From Salipiger thiooxidans (GTDB taxonomy: Bacteria; Pseudomonadota; Alphaproteobacteria; Rhodobacterales; Rhodobacteraceae): 64,000 nt of DNA. The stretch covers positions 124,001 to 188,000 of the forward strand of contig NZ_FNAV01000003.1 of assembly GCF_900102075.1 (NCBI RefSeq), written 5' to 3'. Positions 2,863-33,448 of the stretch are shown one piece after another (position 1 is the first letter of the stretch; each line of letters begins with the position of its first letter). The notes under the pieces are model-generated. The model saw only the letters and a program-made list of their open reading frames with translations. It ran no database searches and was not told the DNA's origin. A program made the translations under genes and the position numbers.

Positions 2863-4431
2863 ATGACCGACCAGACCAAAGACCGCGTGTTCATCTTCGA
2901 CACGACGCTCCGCGACGGCGAGCAATCGCCCGGCGCCACCATGACCCATGACGAGAAGCTCGAGATCGCCGAGCTGCTCGAGGACATGGGCGTCGACATC
3001 ATCGAGGCCGGATTCCCGATCGCCTCCGAGGGCGACTTCGCCGCGGTCTCCGAGATCGCCAAGCGCAGCAAGGAGTCGGTGATCTGCGGCCTCGCCCGCG
3101 CCCAGATCCCCGACATCGACCGCTGCTGGGAGGCGGTGAAATTCGCGCCGCGCCCGCGCATCCACACCTTCATCGGGACCTCGCCGCTGCACCGCGCCAT
3201 CCCGAACCTCACCATGGACGAGATGGCCGACCGCATCCACCAGACGGTGACCCACGCCCGCAACCTCTGCGACAACGTGCAGTGGTCGCCGATGGACGCG
3301 ACCCGGACCGAGTGGGACTATCTCTGCCGCGTGGTCGAGATCGCCATCAAGGCCGGGGCCACCACGATCAACATCCCCGACACGGTGGGCTACACCGCGC
3401 CTCGCGAATCCGCCGATCTCATCAAGCGGCTGATCGAGACGGTGCCGGGCGCCGACGAGGTGATCTTCGCCACCCACTGCCACAACGACCTCGGCATGGC
3501 GACGGCGAACGCGCTGGCCGCCGTCGAGGGCGGTGCGCGCCAGATCGAATGCACGATCAACGGCCTCGGCGAGCGCGCGGGCAACACCGCGCTGGAAGAG
3601 GTGGTGATGGCGCTCAAGACCCGCAGCGACATCATGCCCTTCTTCACCGAGATCGACACCCGCAAGATCATGCACATCTCGCGCCGCGTCTCGACCGTCT
3701 CGGGCTTCCCGGTGCAGTTCAACAAGGCCATCGTCGGCAAGAACGCCTTTGCCCACGAGTCCGGCATCCACCAGGACGGCATGCTCAAGAACAAGGAGAC
3801 GTTCGAGATCATGCGCCCCGAGGATGTGGGTCTCGCCGGCACCTCGCTGCCGCTCGGCAAGCACTCGGGCCGCGCCGCGCTCCGCGCCAAGCTCAAGGAT
3901 CTCGGCGTCGAGGTCGGTGACAACCAGCTCAAGGACATCTTCGTCCGCTTCAAGGATCTCGCCGACCGCAAGAAGGAGGTCTTCGACGAGGACATCCTCG
4001 CGCTGGTGACTGCGGCGATGACCACCGAGGGGACCGATCATCTCGAGATCGTGTCGCTCAAGGTGATCTGCGGCACCGCCGGCCAGGCCGAAGCGGTGCT
4101 CGAGATGGAAGTGGGCGGCGAAGAGCGCAGCGCCGACGAATACGGCGACGGCCCGGTCGACGCGACCTTCAAGGCGGTGCGCAAGCTCTACCCGAACAAG
4201 GCCCGCCTGCAGCTCTACCAGGTGCACGCGGTGACCGAGGGCACCGACGCACAGGCCACCGTCTCGGTGCGTCTCGAGGAAGACGGCAAGATCGCCACCG
4301 GCCAGTCGGCGGACACCGACACCGTGGTGGCCTCGGCCCGTGCCTACGTGAACGCGCTCAACCGGCTGCACGTGCGCCGCAGCCGTACCGGCAGCGACGT
4401 CAAGGAAATCAGCTACAAGGACGTGGGCTGA
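2863..4431 (+). CDS. leuA: 2-isopropylmalate synthase
   Basis: The enzyme condenses 2-oxoisovalerate with acetyl-CoA, the committed step of leucine synthesis, in the cytoplasm. The 522-residue product starts with the DmpG/HMGL-type [13 protein letters not shown], has metal-binding HCHNDLGMA, then [13 protein letters not shown] and a HESGIHQDG segment. A C-terminal LeuA allosteric domain of about 130 residues should carry leucine feedback inhibition. Length is normal for the family. AGGATT lies 8 bases before the ATG. Transcription is probably controlled by the leader peptide and hairpins upstream. A strong hairpin follows about 15 bases after the stop. Confidence 0.97.
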
Positions 4432-13310: not shown

Positions 13311-13395
13311 CGGATCGCCTCAGGTCTCGACCTAGGGCAGCGCCGTCAGGTGCGGGAAATCCGCCCTCAGGACGGTGTCGAAGCCCAGCCGGATG

Positions 13396-14045
13396 ACGCC
13401 GGCGCTGCGCAACGTGGCGATGGTATTCCAGCAATACTCGCTCTACCCGGACATGACGGTGCGCGGGGACCTCGCCTTCCCGCTGAAGTCGCCGCTGCTG
13501 CGCTACGAAGAGGCCCAGATCGCCCGCAAGCTCCGCGCCGACCTGCGGGTCGAGTTGAAGAACATCCAGGCCCAATCCGGCGTGCCGTTTCTCTACGTGA
13601 GCCACGATCAGATCGAGGCGATGGCCATGGCGAGCCACGTCGGCGTGCGCGATCAGGGACGGCTGGTGCAGTTCGGCTCACCGCGCGAGTCTGCGAGGAC
13701 CCGGTCAGCGTCTACGCCGCAAGCCGCCTCGGCCAGCCGCGCATCAACATCCTGCCCGCGGATCTGTTCGCCGGCGCCCCCGCGGCCGCGCGCTATATCG
13801 GCTTGCGCCCCGAGCAGATCCGGCAGGGCGACAGCGCCAAGAGCCGAGAGCCGAGAGCCGAGAGCCGAGAGCCGGGTCATCCCGGTCGAGCACCTTGGCG
13901 ACCAGACCCGCCTGCACCTGAGCTTCCGCGACCACGCTCTGATCACGCTGACCGAGCCGCACACCGCGCTGCGCTCGGGGGACACCGTGCGCATCACCCC
14001 CGAACCCCCGTTCTTTTCGACGCCTCCGGCGCCCTCGCCCAGTGA
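13396..14045 (+). pseudogene. Decayed sugar ABC transporter ATP-binding protein
   Basis: Pieces match the MalK/UgpC family: ALRNVAMVFQQYSLYPDMTV (Q-loop region), VPFLYVSHDQIEAMAMASHV (switch His), GRLVQFGSPRE, then VYAASRLGQPRINILPADLF and VIPVEHLGDQTRLHLSF (C-terminal regulatory domain). The 5' end with Walker A is gone. An in-frame deletion near 13530 fused IARK to LRADLRVEL, removing the signature and Walker B. One base is lost near 13690, a 7-bp repeat at 13841-13874 shifts frame again, and another shift lies near 14010. The original stop is 14043-14045. It cannot make an active ATPase. The lost operon was probably sugar or polyol uptake. Confidence 0.88.
13841..13874. repeat. GAGCCGA heptamer tandem repeat
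   Basis: GAGCCGA occurs four times followed by a partial GAGCCG, inside the ABC ATPase pseudogene between codons that were probably adjacent (SAKSR and VIPVEHL). One copy is expected from the reading frame, so about four were added (28 bases, a +1 shift). This looks like replication slippage. Confidence 0.9.
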
Positions 14046-14055
14046 GGAGGCCGCA

Positions 14056-14732
14056 ATGCGCCAATTCATCACCCTGAAGGAAGACATCGTCGCAGAGGCG
14101 GTGGACGGCGTGGTTTCGGCATCGGGCGGGCGGCTCGCGCGGCTCGAGGGGTACCCTCATATCCGGGTGGTGCTGCGCGCCGACTGAGACAAGTCCCGCG
14201 TGGCGCTGGTCTCGGGCGGCAGCTCAGGGCACGAGCCCGCCCACGCGGGCTTCGTCGGCGCGGGCATTCCGACCGCGGCGATCTGCGGCGACGTCTTTGC
14301 CTCGTCCTCGGTCGACGCGGTGCTTGCGGGCATCCTCGCGGTGACCGGCCCGGCGGGCTGCCTGCCGATCATCAAGAACGACACCGGCGTCCGGCTGAAC
14401 TTCGGCCTCGCCGCCGAGTGCGCCGGGGCCTTCGGGCTCAATGTCGCGATGGTGGTGGTCGATGAAGACATCGCCCTGCCCAGCCTGCCGCAGGCGCGCG
14501 GTGTGGCGGGCACGCTCTTCGTGAACAAGATCGCGGGGGCGCTGGCCGAGAACGGCGTCGACCGCACCGCGCCGCCAAGGCAGGACGCTCGGCCTGCATC
14601 AATGCCGATCAGCTCAAGGGACAGGCCGACCCGGGCGCCGAGGCGGTGGCCCGATTCTTCGAGAGCCTCGCAGCATGGGCGCAGGACGGCACCGGGGATG
14701 CGCCGGCCCTGCGGTCGGGCTGCGCAACCTGA
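14056..14732 (+). pseudogene. Decayed dihydroxyacetone kinase (DhaK-DhaL fusion type)
   Basis: From ATG 14056 (GGAGG upstream) the frame reads as a DhaK N-terminus: ASGGRLARLEGYPHIRVVLRAD, then stop TGA (14185-14187) where the family has Trp (TGG), then DKSRVALVSGGSSGHEPAHA, GDVFASSSVDAVLAGILAVT and KNDTGVRLNFGLAAE. At about 14570 it jumps frame to AAKAGRSACINADQLKG with ADPGAEAVARFFESL, which resembles a DhaL (DAK2) C-terminus, ending TGA 14730-14732. So most of DAK1's second half and DAK2's start are deleted. Intact enzymes phosphorylate dihydroxyacetone or related sugars. DhaK identity is strong; DhaL identity of the tail is my inference. Confidence 0.87.
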
Positions 14733-14753
14733 GGCGCGGCCCGGTTCCGGGCG

Positions 14754-16061
14754 TCACTTCTCGAAGTCGTGCACCTGCTTGTGCCCGCCCTCGCCCGGCG
14801 CCGGGTCGGGGATGGGCTGGGCAAAACCCTCTTCGCCGATGACCTTCTCGATCTCGGACAGTTCCTCACCGCGGAAGGTCGCCTCGAAGGCGCGCAGGCG
14901 TTTGTAGATCGACAGAAGCTCGACGATGGTGGTCCAGGAGTTCACGAGGAACTGGAACGAGCCGCTGACCTGCCCGAAGGCGGTGAGGATCTGCTGCCAG
15001 AGGCCCAGCGTGATCTTACCCGCCACGATGGTCGGCACGAGGATGATGTTTACGTAGATGTTGTCCGCCTGCAGGTAGAGACCGCGCGCGACGTTGAAAT
15101 ACATGTAGTGGAAGTAGAGCCGGAAGTAGTTGTGCCGGACGTTGGTGAAAAGCTGCGCCACGGTCGGCGGCTGCGCCCGCGAAGGGTCGTCCTCGCCATA
15201 GACCAGCTCCTTGCGGTAGGCGGCCTCGACCCGCTGGTTGAGGAACTCGAGCCCCGGCAGCCGGATGCCCACCAGCGCCAGAAGCCCGGTGCCGAAGGCG
15301 GCCCAGAAGATCAGCGCCACGAAGAGCGGGTGCGGGATCGCGCCCACCAGCGGCAGCTCGGTGACGTATTGCGAGAGCCCCCAGAGCACCGGCAGGAAGG
15401 CGATCAGCGTCATCAGCGCATCCACGACCGACACCCCGAGCCCCTCCATGATGGTGGCGAAGCGCATGGTGTCTTCCTGGACCCGCTGCGAGGCGCCCTC
15501 GATGTTGCGGATCGTCGACCAGCGAGACATGTAGTAGTCGTTCATCGCGGTGCGCCAGCGGAACACGTAGTGGCTGACGAAGAACCGGGTGACCACGTAG
15601 ATCACCGTCGAGACCAGCGCGATCTCGGCGAAGATCACGATCAGCTCGTAGAGATCCCCTGCGGTGACCGACCCATCCCCCGAGAGCGCCTGTTGGAACT
15701 CGTCGAAGAACGGCCGGCGCCAGTTGTTGATCGCGACGCTGACCTGCACGCCATAATAGGTGGTGAACAGGATGAAGGCCGAGCCGAGGATCGACCACAT
15801 CTGCCAGCGGTGCGGATGGTAGAGGAACCAGAACGCCGCGAAGAGCGCCACCCAGACCACGTAGAAGACGTAGAACCACAGGAAGGACGGGGTGTAGAAA
15901 TACGCGATCCCCACCACGGGCTCGCCCGCGTCCTGCAGGTCGAAGCCTATCATCGTGCCGATCTGCGTGCCGACGCCGTACCAGACGAGCATCCCGAAAG
16001 CGGTCCAGAGCAGGACCGAGAGGAAAAACTGCTTGGGTTTGGGGAAGAAGGACTCGAACAC
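14754..16061 (-). CDS. sbmA: SbmA/BacA-type peptide transporter
   Basis: This 435-residue inner-membrane protein resembles SbmA/BacA, a proton-driven importer of peptide antibiotics and related compounds. Hydrophobic segments begin at [14 protein letters not shown] and [20 protein letters not shown], with further ones to the C-terminus. Characteristic stretches are [28 protein letters not shown] and [12 protein letters not shown]. There is no nucleotide-binding domain, as expected. I chose GTG at 16061 because homologous sequence begins there; the frame extends to 16121 in unrelated residues. The C-terminal tail is polar. Confidence 0.88.
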
Positions 16062-29824: not shown

Positions 29825-31213
29825 TCAGTAGCGGTAGTGCTCGGGCTTGAAGGGGCCTTCCGGCGCCACACCGATATAGGCGGCCTGCTCGGGGGTGAGC
29901 GTGGTCAGCTTCACGCCGATCCGGCCAAGGTGCAGGCGCGCGACCTTCTCGTCGAGGTGCTTGGGCAGGATGTAGACCTTGTTGTCGTAGCCTTCGCCGT
30001 TCTTCCACAGCTCGATCTGGGCGAGCGTCTGGTTGGTGAAGGAGGCCGACATCACAAAGGACGGGTGGCCGGTGGCGTTGCCGAGGTTCAGCAGACGACC
30101 TTCGGACAGCAGGATGATGCGCGAGCCCGAGGGCATCTCGATCATGTCGACCTGGTCCTTGATGTTGGTCCACTTGTGGTTCTTCAGCTGCGCGACCTGG
30201 ATCTCGTTGTCGAAGTGGCCGATGTTGCCGACGATGGCCATGTCCTTCATCTCGCGCATGTGCTCGATGCGGATCACGTCCTTGTTGCCGGTGGTGGTGA
30301 CGAAGATGTCGGCGCTGCCGACCACGTCCTCGAGCAGTACGACCTCGAACCCGTCCATGGCGGCCTGAAGTGCGCAGATCGGGTCGGCTTCGGTCACCTT
30401 CACGCGGGCGCCGGCGCCGGCGAGCGAGGCTGCCGAGCCCTTGCCCACGTCACCGTAGCCGCAGACCACGGCGACCTTGCCGGCCATCATCGTGTCGGTG
30501 GCGCGGCGGATGCCGTCCACGAGCGATTCCTTGCAGCCGTACTTGTTGTCGAACTTCGACTTGGTCACCGAGTCGTTGACGTTAATCGCCGGGAACGGCA
30601 GCTGGCCGTTCTTCTGCAGCTCGTAGAGACGGTGCACGCCAGTGGTGGTCTCTTCCGAGACGCCCTTGATCTGGTCGCGAACCTTAGTGAACCAGCCCGG
30701 GCTCGCCTCCATGCGCTTCTTGATCTGCGCCTTGATGACGGCCTCTTCCTCGGACTGCGGCACCGGGATGATGTCCTCGCCCGCCTCGGCGCGTGCGCCG
30801 AGCAGGACGTAGAGCGTCGCGTCGCCGCCGTCATCAAGGATCATGTTCGGGCCTTCCTCGAACATGAAGGACTTGTCGAGGTAGTCCCAGTGCTCTTCCA
30901 GCGTCTGCCCCTTCACGGCGAAGACCGGCGTGCCGCTGGCGGCAATTGCCGCGGCCGCGTGGTCCTGCGTCGAGAAGATGTTGCACGACGCCCAGCGCAC
31001 GTCGGCGCCCAGCGCGACCAGCGTCTCGATGAGAACGGCGGTCTGGATGGTCATGTGCAGCGATCCGACGATGCGCGCGCCTTTCAGCGGTTGCTCTTCG
31101 CCGAATTCGGCACGGCAGGCCATGAGGCCCGGCATTTCAGTTTCTGCAATATCAAGTTCTTTGCGGCCAAAATCGGCCAGGGAAATATCTTTAACGATGT
31201 AGTCTTGAGCCAT
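29825..31213 (-). CDS. ahcY: Adenosylhomocysteinase
   Basis: AhcY reversibly hydrolyses S-adenosylhomocysteine to adenosine and homocysteine, keeping methylation going. The 462-residue product has [54 protein letters not shown]-binding [26 protein letters not shown] and the C-terminal KPEHYRY. ATG 31213 opens the conserved N-terminus. Upstream lies a 98-base gap to the divergent pseudogene; I saw no clear SAH riboswitch in it. Confidence 0.97.
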
Positions 31214-31311
31214 AACAGGCGCTCCATTCACCTTTTGCAAGATGACCTTGGCCTAGCATTCCTTGATTATGCAGGCAACGCAGATAAGCCTCCTCGGCAA
31301 ACAGAACCATA

Positions 31312-32039
31312 ATGCCGGGCGCAGACGGGGCCAGAGCGGTGAAAAATACGGACGAAAGCCATCCCGCGAACGAATTCGGGCGATATTGCGTTCGCTCGGG
31401 ACCCGAGGCGCATCCGGCCGCCCTTTCCGTGATCCCGGGCCTGGTCCGTGAACCTGAAACCCTGCGTTTCATGCGTGCCCGCGCCGGAGACGGCGATATC
31501 ATCCACGCCGGCGCTTTCCTCGGAGATTTCCTTCCCGCTCTGTCCTTTGCCATGGCCCAAGGGCGCAGGGTCCGGGTCTTCGAGCCCAATCCAGGCAGTT
31601 TCGATGCCGCCCGCAGAACCGTCGCGCTGACCGGGCGCGGCAACGTCACCCTGACCAATGCCGCGCTCTCGAACCGCGAGGGCCCGCTGCTCTTCCGCAC
31701 CCGCGATGGCGAGGGCCAGAGCCCCGGCGGGCTCTCGCGCGTGACCGAGGACCCGGGCGAGGTTCAGGCGGTCATGCCCGACGTCGTGGCACCGCTGTCC
31801 CGACGGGTGACGATCCTGCGGTTCGACGGGTGACGATCCTGCGGTTCGACGTCGAGGGTCACGAGAAGCCTGCGCTGCGAGGCGCCTATCATCGCATCCA
31901 CCGCTGGAAACCCATCCTGATTCTCGGGTATCTCGGGCAGCAACAGTGGATCCGGCGCAGTTTTCGCGGCCTCGGCTACCGGCATGTCGGGAAGCTGCAC
32001 GGAATTCACGTCTACGCCTGCGAAGATCTGGAACTCTGA
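31312..32039 (+). pseudogene. FkbM-family methyltransferase split by a 23-bp duplication
   Basis: The first part (31312-31833) has GDGDIIHAGAFLGDFLPALS, RVRVFEPNPGSFDAARR and TNAALSNREGPLLF; the second (from 31830) continues ILRFDVEGHEKPALRGA to GKLHGIHVYACEDLEL. Joined, they make a normal FkbM SAM-dependent methyltransferase of about 235 residues. A 23-base unit is present twice in tandem (31801-31823, 31824-31846), shifting frame and creating a TGA. Removing one copy restores RVTILRFDVEGHE. FkbM enzymes O-methylate sugars or polyketides. The break could be recent, phase-variable or an assembly artefact. The next gene (HD) starts 3 bases after. Confidence 0.88.
31801..31846. repeat. 23-bp direct tandem duplication
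   Basis: Two identical adjacent 23-base units (CGACGGGTGACGATCCTGCG plus GTT), followed by a partial third start (CGAC). It breaks the fkbM gene. The unit length, not a multiple of three, means gain or loss would switch the frame. Confidence 0.95.
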
Positions 32040-32042
32040 CAC

Positions 32043-32639
32043 ATGTCCAAGCAGCCCCGCGCCTGGCAACGGATGCTCTCGGGCCGCCGTCTCGATCTGC
32101 TCGATCCCACCCCGGTGGACATCGAGATCGAGGACATCGCCCACGGCCTTGCCTTCGTCGCCCGCTGGAACGGCCAGACAGAGGGCGACTTCCCCTACTC
32201 CGTCGCCGAACATTCGCTTCTGGTCGAGGCGCTGTTCTCGCGCATGTATCCCACCGCCAACGCCGCCGCGAAGCTGACCGCGCTGCTGCATGACGCGCCG
32301 GAATACGTCATCGGCGACATGATCTCGCCGGTGAAGGCCGCGGTGGGGCCCGAGTACAAGGAGCTCGACAAGCGGCTCGAGGCGGCGATCCACATTCGCT
32401 TCGGCCTGCCCGCGCAGACCACCTCGGCGCTGAAGAAGCGGATCAAGAAGGCCGACATGGTCTCGGCCTTCATGGAGGCCACCCAGATCGCCGGCTTCAC
32501 CGAGGCCGAGGCCAAGCGATTCTTCGGACGCCCCGCCGACGAGCTGATCGCAGGGCTCGACATCCACCTGCGCCCGCCGGTCGAGGTGCGCCGCGCCTTC
32601 ACCGCACGTCACGCCGAACTGCTGGAGGCCCTGCCATGA
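32043..32639 (+). CDS. HD-domain phosphohydrolase (YfbR-like)
   Basis: The 198-residue cytoplasmic protein has the HD metal pattern: H in SVAEHSLLVEAL, HD in LLHDAPEYVIGDMISP, and a later Asp in KKADMVSAFME. It resembles YfbR-type 5'-deoxynucleotidases that dephosphorylate dNMPs; substrate is inferred. It overlaps the GNAT gene downstream by 4 bases. Confidence 0.87.
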   Translation: MSKQPRAWQRMLSGRRLDLLDPTPVDIEIEDIAHGLAFVARWNGQTEGDFPYSVAEHSLLVEALFSRMYPTANAAAKLTALLHDAPEYVIGDMISPVKAAVGPEYKELDKRLEAAIHIRFGLPAQTTSALKKRIKKADMVSAFMEATQIAGFTEAEAKRFFGRPADELIAGLDIHLRPPVEVRRAFTARHAELLEALP

Positions 32640-33118
32640 TCACCGTGCGTCGCGCCGGTCCGTTGGACGCCCGCCCGATGGCGGAGCTTCTGAACGAGGT
32701 CATCGCCATCGGCGGCACCACCGCCATCACCGAGCCGGTCACCCGCGAGGACCTGCTGAACTGGATGGAAGCCGACCCGCGCTCGATCTGGCACGTGGCC
32801 GAGGACGCCGCCGGGCAGATCATGGGCTTCCAGTGGGTCGACCCGCATCTCAAGCTGGGCGAGACGGTCGCGCAGATCGCCAGCTTCGCCCGCGTCGGCA
32901 AAACCGGGCTGGGCATCGGCTCGAAGCTCTTCGATGCGACCAAGCGCGCCGCCCGCACCGCGGGCTACGCCTGGATCAACGCCGAGATCCGCGCCGACAA
33001 CGAGGGCGGGCTGATCTACTACCAGAGCCGCGGCTTCGAGGATTACGGCCGCATCGAGGGCTACGTCATGTCGAATGGCCAGGTCGTCGACAAGGTGCTG
33101 AAGCGCTACGACCTCTGA
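32636..33118 (+). CDS. GNAT family N-acetyltransferase
   Basis: The 160-residue protein shows the GNAT fold: VRRAGPLDARPMAELLNEVI, IMGFQWVDPH, and the acetyl-CoA loop region RVGKTGLGIGSKLFDATKRA, then WINAEIRADNEGGLIYYQSRGF. The acceptor is unknown. It starts inside the stop of the HD gene, so both are translated from one message. Confidence 0.9.
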   Translation: MITVRRAGPLDARPMAELLNEVIAIGGTTAITEPVTREDLLNWMEADPRSIWHVAEDAAGQIMGFQWVDPHLKLGETVAQIASFARVGKTGLGIGSKLFDATKRAARTAGYAWINAEIRADNEGGLIYYQSRGFEDYGRIEGYVMSNGQVVDKVLKRYDL

Positions 33119-33124
33119 CCCGGC

Positions 33125-33448
33125 TCAGAACCCGGTCCTCGTTCCGACCTCGGGCTGCTCCGGCAGGTCGAGCATCAGCGCCCCACCCGAGGCCAGCACG
33201 CAGCTTTGCCCGGTGGCGCCGGTCAGCAGCACCGTGAAGGTGCCGGTCTCTTCCGAGCCCCAGAGCTCCATCAGCGTGGCGGGGGATTGCAGGCCGATCG
33301 CGATGCGCCGCTCGGCGAAGCGTTTCTCAAGCTGGGTGACGACGCTGTCGCGCGGGGCGCAGAAACGGACCTGCTGCGCCTCTGCCGCGGGCGGCGCCAG
33401 CGCTGCGGCGCCAAGGATCAGCGATGCTGTGAAAAGACGTTTGAACAT
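33125..33448 (-). CDS. Small secreted protein of unknown function
   Basis: The 107-residue product has a signal peptide (KRLFTASLILGAAALAPPA, cleaved near AEA) and a mature part with two Cys (VRFCAPRD, GQSCVLASG) that may form a disulfide, and GTFTVLLTG. Similar small proteins are frequent in Rhodobacterales but have no assigned role. It ends 6 bases from the convergent GNAT stop. Confidence 0.75.
   Translation of the reverse strand: MFKRLFTASLILGAAALAPPAAEAQQVRFCAPRDSVVTQLEKRFAERRIAIGLQSPATLMELWGSEETGTFTVLLTGATGQSCVLASGGALMLDLPEQPEVGTRTGF

Follow-up and report, generated by a model that had tools for sequence, protein, structure and literature searches.

The split fkbM gene and its duplication

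The window, i.e., the whole stretch of 64,000 nucleotides that was analysed, covers positions 124001-188000 of a 434,706-base contig in a Salipiger draft genome (5.87 Mb, 68 contigs). It contains a locus with the gene order ahcY (-), fkbM, HD-domain gene, GNAT gene and then regA (-), in which ahcY and regA are presumed names based on sequence and gene order. The product of ahcY, S-adenosylhomocysteine hydrolase, clears the by-product of SAM methyltransferase reactions. The features are as follows:

29825-31213, minus strand: ahcY (presumed name), S-adenosylhomocysteine hydrolase, divergent from fkbM; left edge of the site compared across the genus
31312-31833, plus strand: N-terminal open frame of fkbM, 173 codons, ending at a TGA (31831-31833) created by the frameshift
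31801-31823, plus strand: copy 1 of the duplication, 23 bp (Tandem Repeats Finder and sequence)
31824-31846, plus strand: copy 2, 23 bp, identical to copy 1 (Tandem Repeats Finder and sequence)
31847-31851, plus strand: third CGACG, the 5-bp microhomology closing the duplication (sequence)
31830-32039, plus strand: C-terminal part of fkbM, out of frame with the N-terminal one, 69 codons starting at a GTG that overlaps the TGA
32043-32639, plus strand: HD-domain (YfbR-like) gene, found in 20 of 20 genus genomes; right edge of the compared site
32636-33118, plus strand: GNAT acetyltransferase gene, downstream neighbour of fkbM

The whole fkbM gene spans 31312-32039, as the initial annotation had placed it, with the lesion proper at 31801-31851. 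The N-terminal half matched positions 2-82 of 143 in the NCBIfam profile TIGR01444 (37.8 bits, cut-off 37.7) and no family in a Pfam search, and the C-terminal half matched positions 116-149 of 173 in the Pfam profile PF05050 (24.0 bits, cut-off 22.7) and no family in an NCBIfam search. Both scores lie above the curated cut-offs, which places the gene in the FkbM family by ancestry, and no single frame holds a complete Rossmann methyltransferase domain; intact orthologues score 70-72 bits against TIGR01444. Elsewhere in this genome, the same profile found one further match above the cut-off (C32, 57.3 bits) and one below it (C39, 23.2 bits). Each half aligns over its whole length with 16 intact orthologues, eight from Salipiger and eight from other Roseobacteraceae, and the two cover successive parts of them. 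Judged by these alignments, the two frames are one FkbM-family gene in two pieces, and its frame is disrupted relative to the intact orthologues, as in a pseudogene. Besides the duplication, no second stop or frameshift was found in the fkbM frame.

The consequences for the protein were viewed on a structure model of the intact orthologue in genome G005 (AlphaFold2, 15-row alignment, mean pLDDT 92.3, pTM 0.89), the best PDB match of which is 2py6, "Methyltransferase FkbM" (Foldseek E 7.3e-08, query TM-score 0.53, 17% identity). In this model, the duplicated unit encodes core strand 165-170. The frame is lost just after the core strand bearing the LDVEG motif: the truncated product stays homologous up to the residue aligned with D171, ends with one further glycine, and lacks 62 of about 233 residues. 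These include strands 193-196, 215-220, and 223-227, the last three of the sheet.

A functional enzyme made from the split gene, either in two pieces by coupled re-initiation or by a -1 slip of the ribosome, appears extremely improbable. The TGA does overlap the GTG start of the C-terminal half (GTGA, 31830-31833), and the frame of this half is open to its natural end. Against such an enzyme, inspection by eye recognized no Shine-Dalgarno-like stretch within the 20 nt ahead of the GTG, the N-terminal frame has three XXXYYYZ heptamers (31434, 31680, and 31752) that are all G+C-only and at least 78 nt away from the stop, the split runs through the core strand, and the other family members are single proteins.

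The lesion itself is a perfect repeat at 31801-31851 (period 23, 2.2 copies, 100% match, score 102) and the top-scoring of 68 Tandem Repeats Finder rows in the window. Its layout, CGACG-18 bp-CGACG-18 bp-CGACG, yields a 28-bp matching run, and as 23 leaves a remainder of 2 on division by 3, the frame of fkbM shifts. The initial annotation had described fkbM as broken by a 23-bp tandem duplication, and the perfect repeat, the frame shift and the match of both halves to one protein bear this out. The same 5-mer stands at the start, joint and end of the adjacent copies, a signature of duplication between short direct repeats that a presumed one-copy ancestor in this species would have carried at both ends. 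Because the copies are identical, the lesion should be young.

The duplication is more than chance. A scan for perfect tandem duplications with two complete copies and a period of 10-300 covered 424 kb of the contig, made up of the window and 18 stretches of 20 kb each (some 7% of the genome), and this was its single hit. In four simulated sequences of the same length (order-3 Markov), perfect tandem duplications with periods of at least 10 numbered 2, 1, 2, and 3, and none had a period of 13 or more. Short tandem duplications are thus not common lesions in the scanned DNA, and the suggestion in the initial annotation that they appear as a source of gene breakage here is not supported; a genome-wide crop of such duplications was rejected on this count of one in 424 kb. 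A DNA hairpin promoting slippage was likewise discarded, with 192 of 200 shuffled sequences folding as well as the site.

Outside the scanned periods, the window contains a period-7 array at 13836-13874 (heptamer GCCGAGA, 5.6 copies, 96% match) in the 3' part of the frame 13375-14187 (+). This frame reads like that of an ABC-transporter ATPase running into the start of a DhaK-like protein, and a second frame at 14200-14907 is presumably DhaK-like as well. The stretch looks decayed.

An assembly error, or a mutation acquired in laboratory culture by a sequenced strain whose wild population retains the intact gene, would also account for a second copy, and the species is represented by one genome, a 68-contig draft. 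We consider this explanation unlikely. At 51 bp, the array is short enough to be covered by a single short read, and it sits some 155 kb inside the 435-kb contig, so a false duplication would not be expected; an error at this point would also leave unexplained why, as described below, 11 of 70 invariant residues have changed.

Fate of the gene across Salipiger

The interval between ahcY and the HD gene was surveyed in 20 Salipiger genomes including the window genome (G000). An intact fkbM orthologue is present in eight (G003, G005, G008, G010, G013, G014, G018, and G019), and G004 and G017 carry a full-length divergent FkbM gene at the same place with 40-42% identity to the N-terminal half. 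Internal deletions have shortened the open frames of G006 and G009 to 150 and 155 codons, the missing piece in G009 being 231 bp, a whole number of codons. In seven genomes (G001, G002, G007, G011, G012, G015, and G016), the gap between ahcY and the HD gene measures just 148-415 bp, and a search with the N-terminal half at E 0.001 gave no match anywhere in them. The tally of the 20 is thus 10 full length, two internally deleted, seven gone or reduced to a stub, and one frameshifted, the window copy. In nine of the 19 other genomes, the gene is lost or broken by differing lesions.

On a tree built from four neighbour proteins (GNAT being missing for G002 and regA for G012), this distribution needs at least seven changes, of which starred branches force five. 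With shuffled labels, 7.7-7.8 changes are needed, and 174-186 of 500 shuffles gave a count no higher than the observed one, so the losses are scattered rather than clustered. The change count alone does not separate gain from loss, and the three outgroup rows carry the gene but were found via it. All ten named loci (L001-L010, among them those of G019 and G003) have the order ahcY-fkbM-HD, which speaks for an old position of fkbM.

Several relatives show local variations of this arrangement. About 1 kb of extra DNA with small open frames (3690-4716 of L002) separates the intact fkbM from the HD gene in S. pentaromativorans (G003). Thalassococcus profundi (L006) carries two tandem FkbM genes at 3001-3663 and 3865-4422 between ahcY and the HD gene; their identities to the N-terminal half of the window gene are 60% and 39%. 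A second copy like that of T. profundi may be the ancestor of the divergent FkbM in G004 and G017. In Pseudoponticoccus marisrubri (L005), a relative of the window open reading frame 33125-33448 (-), sharing 43% identity, lies at 3684-3887 between fkbM and the HD gene, a placement from which this small gene would seem to have moved within the cluster.

Between ahcY and fkbM, the window holds a conserved stretch at 31241-31300 (GGTAGCATCCCTTGA...GCAACGTGGATCA in most relatives), which occurs at the same place in L032-L050. As judged by eye, it persists in genomes devoid of fkbM and therefore probably belongs to ahcY. An Rfam scan of 30900-32300 at E 0.1 returned zero matches, and a regulatory RNA at the fkbM locus was rejected on this basis. 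Plasmid relatives of the locus were rejected as well, the lone 48-bp match being situated at the start of the HD gene, outside fkbM.

Erosion and selection on the window copy

Compared with the 16 orthologues, the window fkbM differs at 11 of 70 invariant columns and has one gap in addition, whereas each of the orthologues, subjected to the same test, shows 0-4 changes in 58-62 invariant columns. The changes include L26P, W83R, L155P, Q169R, L170F, E197G, and N223I (G005 numbering), and the FEPNP motif is kept. In simulations on the two fitted trees, the window would be expected to carry 4.8 changes (sd 2.1) and 4.3 changes (sd 2.0), respectively, and 11 was reached in 3 and 4 of 500 runs, with models that yield about 48 invariant columns, fewer than observed; the control by fraction of invariant columns was weaker (45 and 21 of 500). 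The internally deleted copies show, in their remaining invariant residues, the same erosion as the window copy (17 of 42 changed in G006, 6 of 51 in G009). Third-position G+C in the window is 0.772 for fkbM vs. 0.899 for the HD gene, the steepest fall among 13 taxa. The ratio of dN between fkbM and the HD gene is likewise highest in the window (mean 2.31, 12 pairs), little above that of G019 and G010 (2.05 each).

The codon models pull the other way: in neither of two, both fitted with capped iterations, was dN/dS elevated on the window branch. The first, which joined the two halves in columns, put the branch at 0.085 vs. 0.093 elsewhere (LRT 0.07) and rejected a value of 1 (LRT 64). When neighbours shared branch lengths, the branch gave 0.118 vs. 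0.090 (LRT 1.7; LRT 115 against 1), in a model with a 288-nt piece as the HD gene of G003. Window branch lengths in the latter model reach 3.6-4.9 on the neutral scale, so that synonymous change is near saturation and the window dN/dS values are rough. Some other single branches also depart from the background: L003 and L004 are low and L006 is high (LRT 8.6), and G010 is high in the joined-halves model (LRT 3.3), which tested all 12 other tips, as well as in the neighbour-sharing model (LRT 5.9), which tested five of the 12.

What the codon models mainly say is that fkbM would have been under selection for most of the time since the window lineage split off. The branch dN/dS, the absence of further lesions from the fkbM frame and the identity of the two copies would all argue against a gene long dead. 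Neutral decay to the same level, simulated for a G+C-rich gene, left no stop in 23-30% of trials, and for this reason the lack of a second stop is weak evidence either way.

Gene decay, reversible switching, and known systems

We regard the window fkbM as a pseudogene, or as a gene that is now dying: constraint on a dispensable gene was already relaxing when a recent duplication flanked by microhomology broke it. We assign this reading a probability of roughly 0.8. The gene would have encoded a class-I (Rossmann-fold) FkbM-family SAM methyltransferase, divergently oriented to ahcY. Constraint on it presumably weakened in this lineage before a recent replication slippage, or end-joining between two CGACG copies, made the duplication. 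The truncated protein is probably inactive, and its loss may have been tolerated because fkbM seems dispensable in the genus.

The initial annotation had envisaged phase-variable methylation, i.e., a switch in which the two copies slip to one and back and thereby turn the methyltransferase on and off. The physical prerequisites are plausible: the copies are identical and adjacent with 28 bp in common, so precise reversion is conceivable, the remainder of the fkbM frame is open, and pneumococcal capsule genes are known to switch by reversible duplications, according to PMC4243769 and PMC4022640. The array offers just two copies, however, and the mutable repeat is not kept across relatives. At up to two mismatches, the 28-mer occurs among the 20 genus genomes in G000 alone, in its two overlapping places, and is absent from the other 19. 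A CGACG pair at spacing 23 was seen in 0 of 19 rows from 18 intact genes, which indicates that the site is not a kept mutable element; L003 has a different 5-mer pair at this spacing. The missense erosion, the habit of the genus to lose fkbM by large deletions, and a hairpin no better than shuffled sequence point in the same direction. With the gene missing or broken in 10 of the 20 genomes by different lesions, we find a phase-variable switch quite improbable, and ordinary gene decay looks the likelier of the two.

Reversion by slippage between the 28-bp repeats is possible in principle, and the identity of the copies, indicative of a young lesion, leaves room for reversion or a mixed population. 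Very doubtful in our estimation, albeit conceivable, is a slow reversible switch beside ahcY in a marine roseobacter, with a lesion so young that on and off cells may coexist. If reversion held true, duplication-based switching would be extended to marine Roseobacteraceae.

Under the preferred reading of gene decay, the lesion is an ordinary, cleanly datable case of bacterial gene death. One gene at a fixed place by S-adenosylhomocysteine hydrolase, full length in half of 20 congeners, provides a small natural decay series of modest use. Among the papers searched, none combines Salipiger and FkbM.

Three known systems invite comparison. The FkbM-family SAM methyltransferases (TIGR01444, PF05050, and 2py6) share with the window gene the profile matches of both halves and the best structural match of the G005 orthologue, and the window copy differs from them by its split into two frames and by 11 changed conserved residues. 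Waite et al. are said to have described reversible sequence duplications in pneumococcal capsule genes in 2001 and 2003. The genes concerned, cap3A, cap8E, and tts, resemble the Salipiger case in that a short tandem duplication within the reading frame inactivates the gene, and the citing sources describe the duplications as reversible (PMC4243769, PMC4022640). Switching is observed there, whereas the Salipiger fkbM has shown no variation, is not a capsule gene and is deleted outright in the genus. Microhomology-mediated tandem duplications are also known from fission yeast ssp1, where a review (PMC13207564) describes them as rapidly reversible. Both duplications are bounded by a short direct repeat and lead to an early stop; fkbM differs from ssp1 in being a bacterial case known from one genome.
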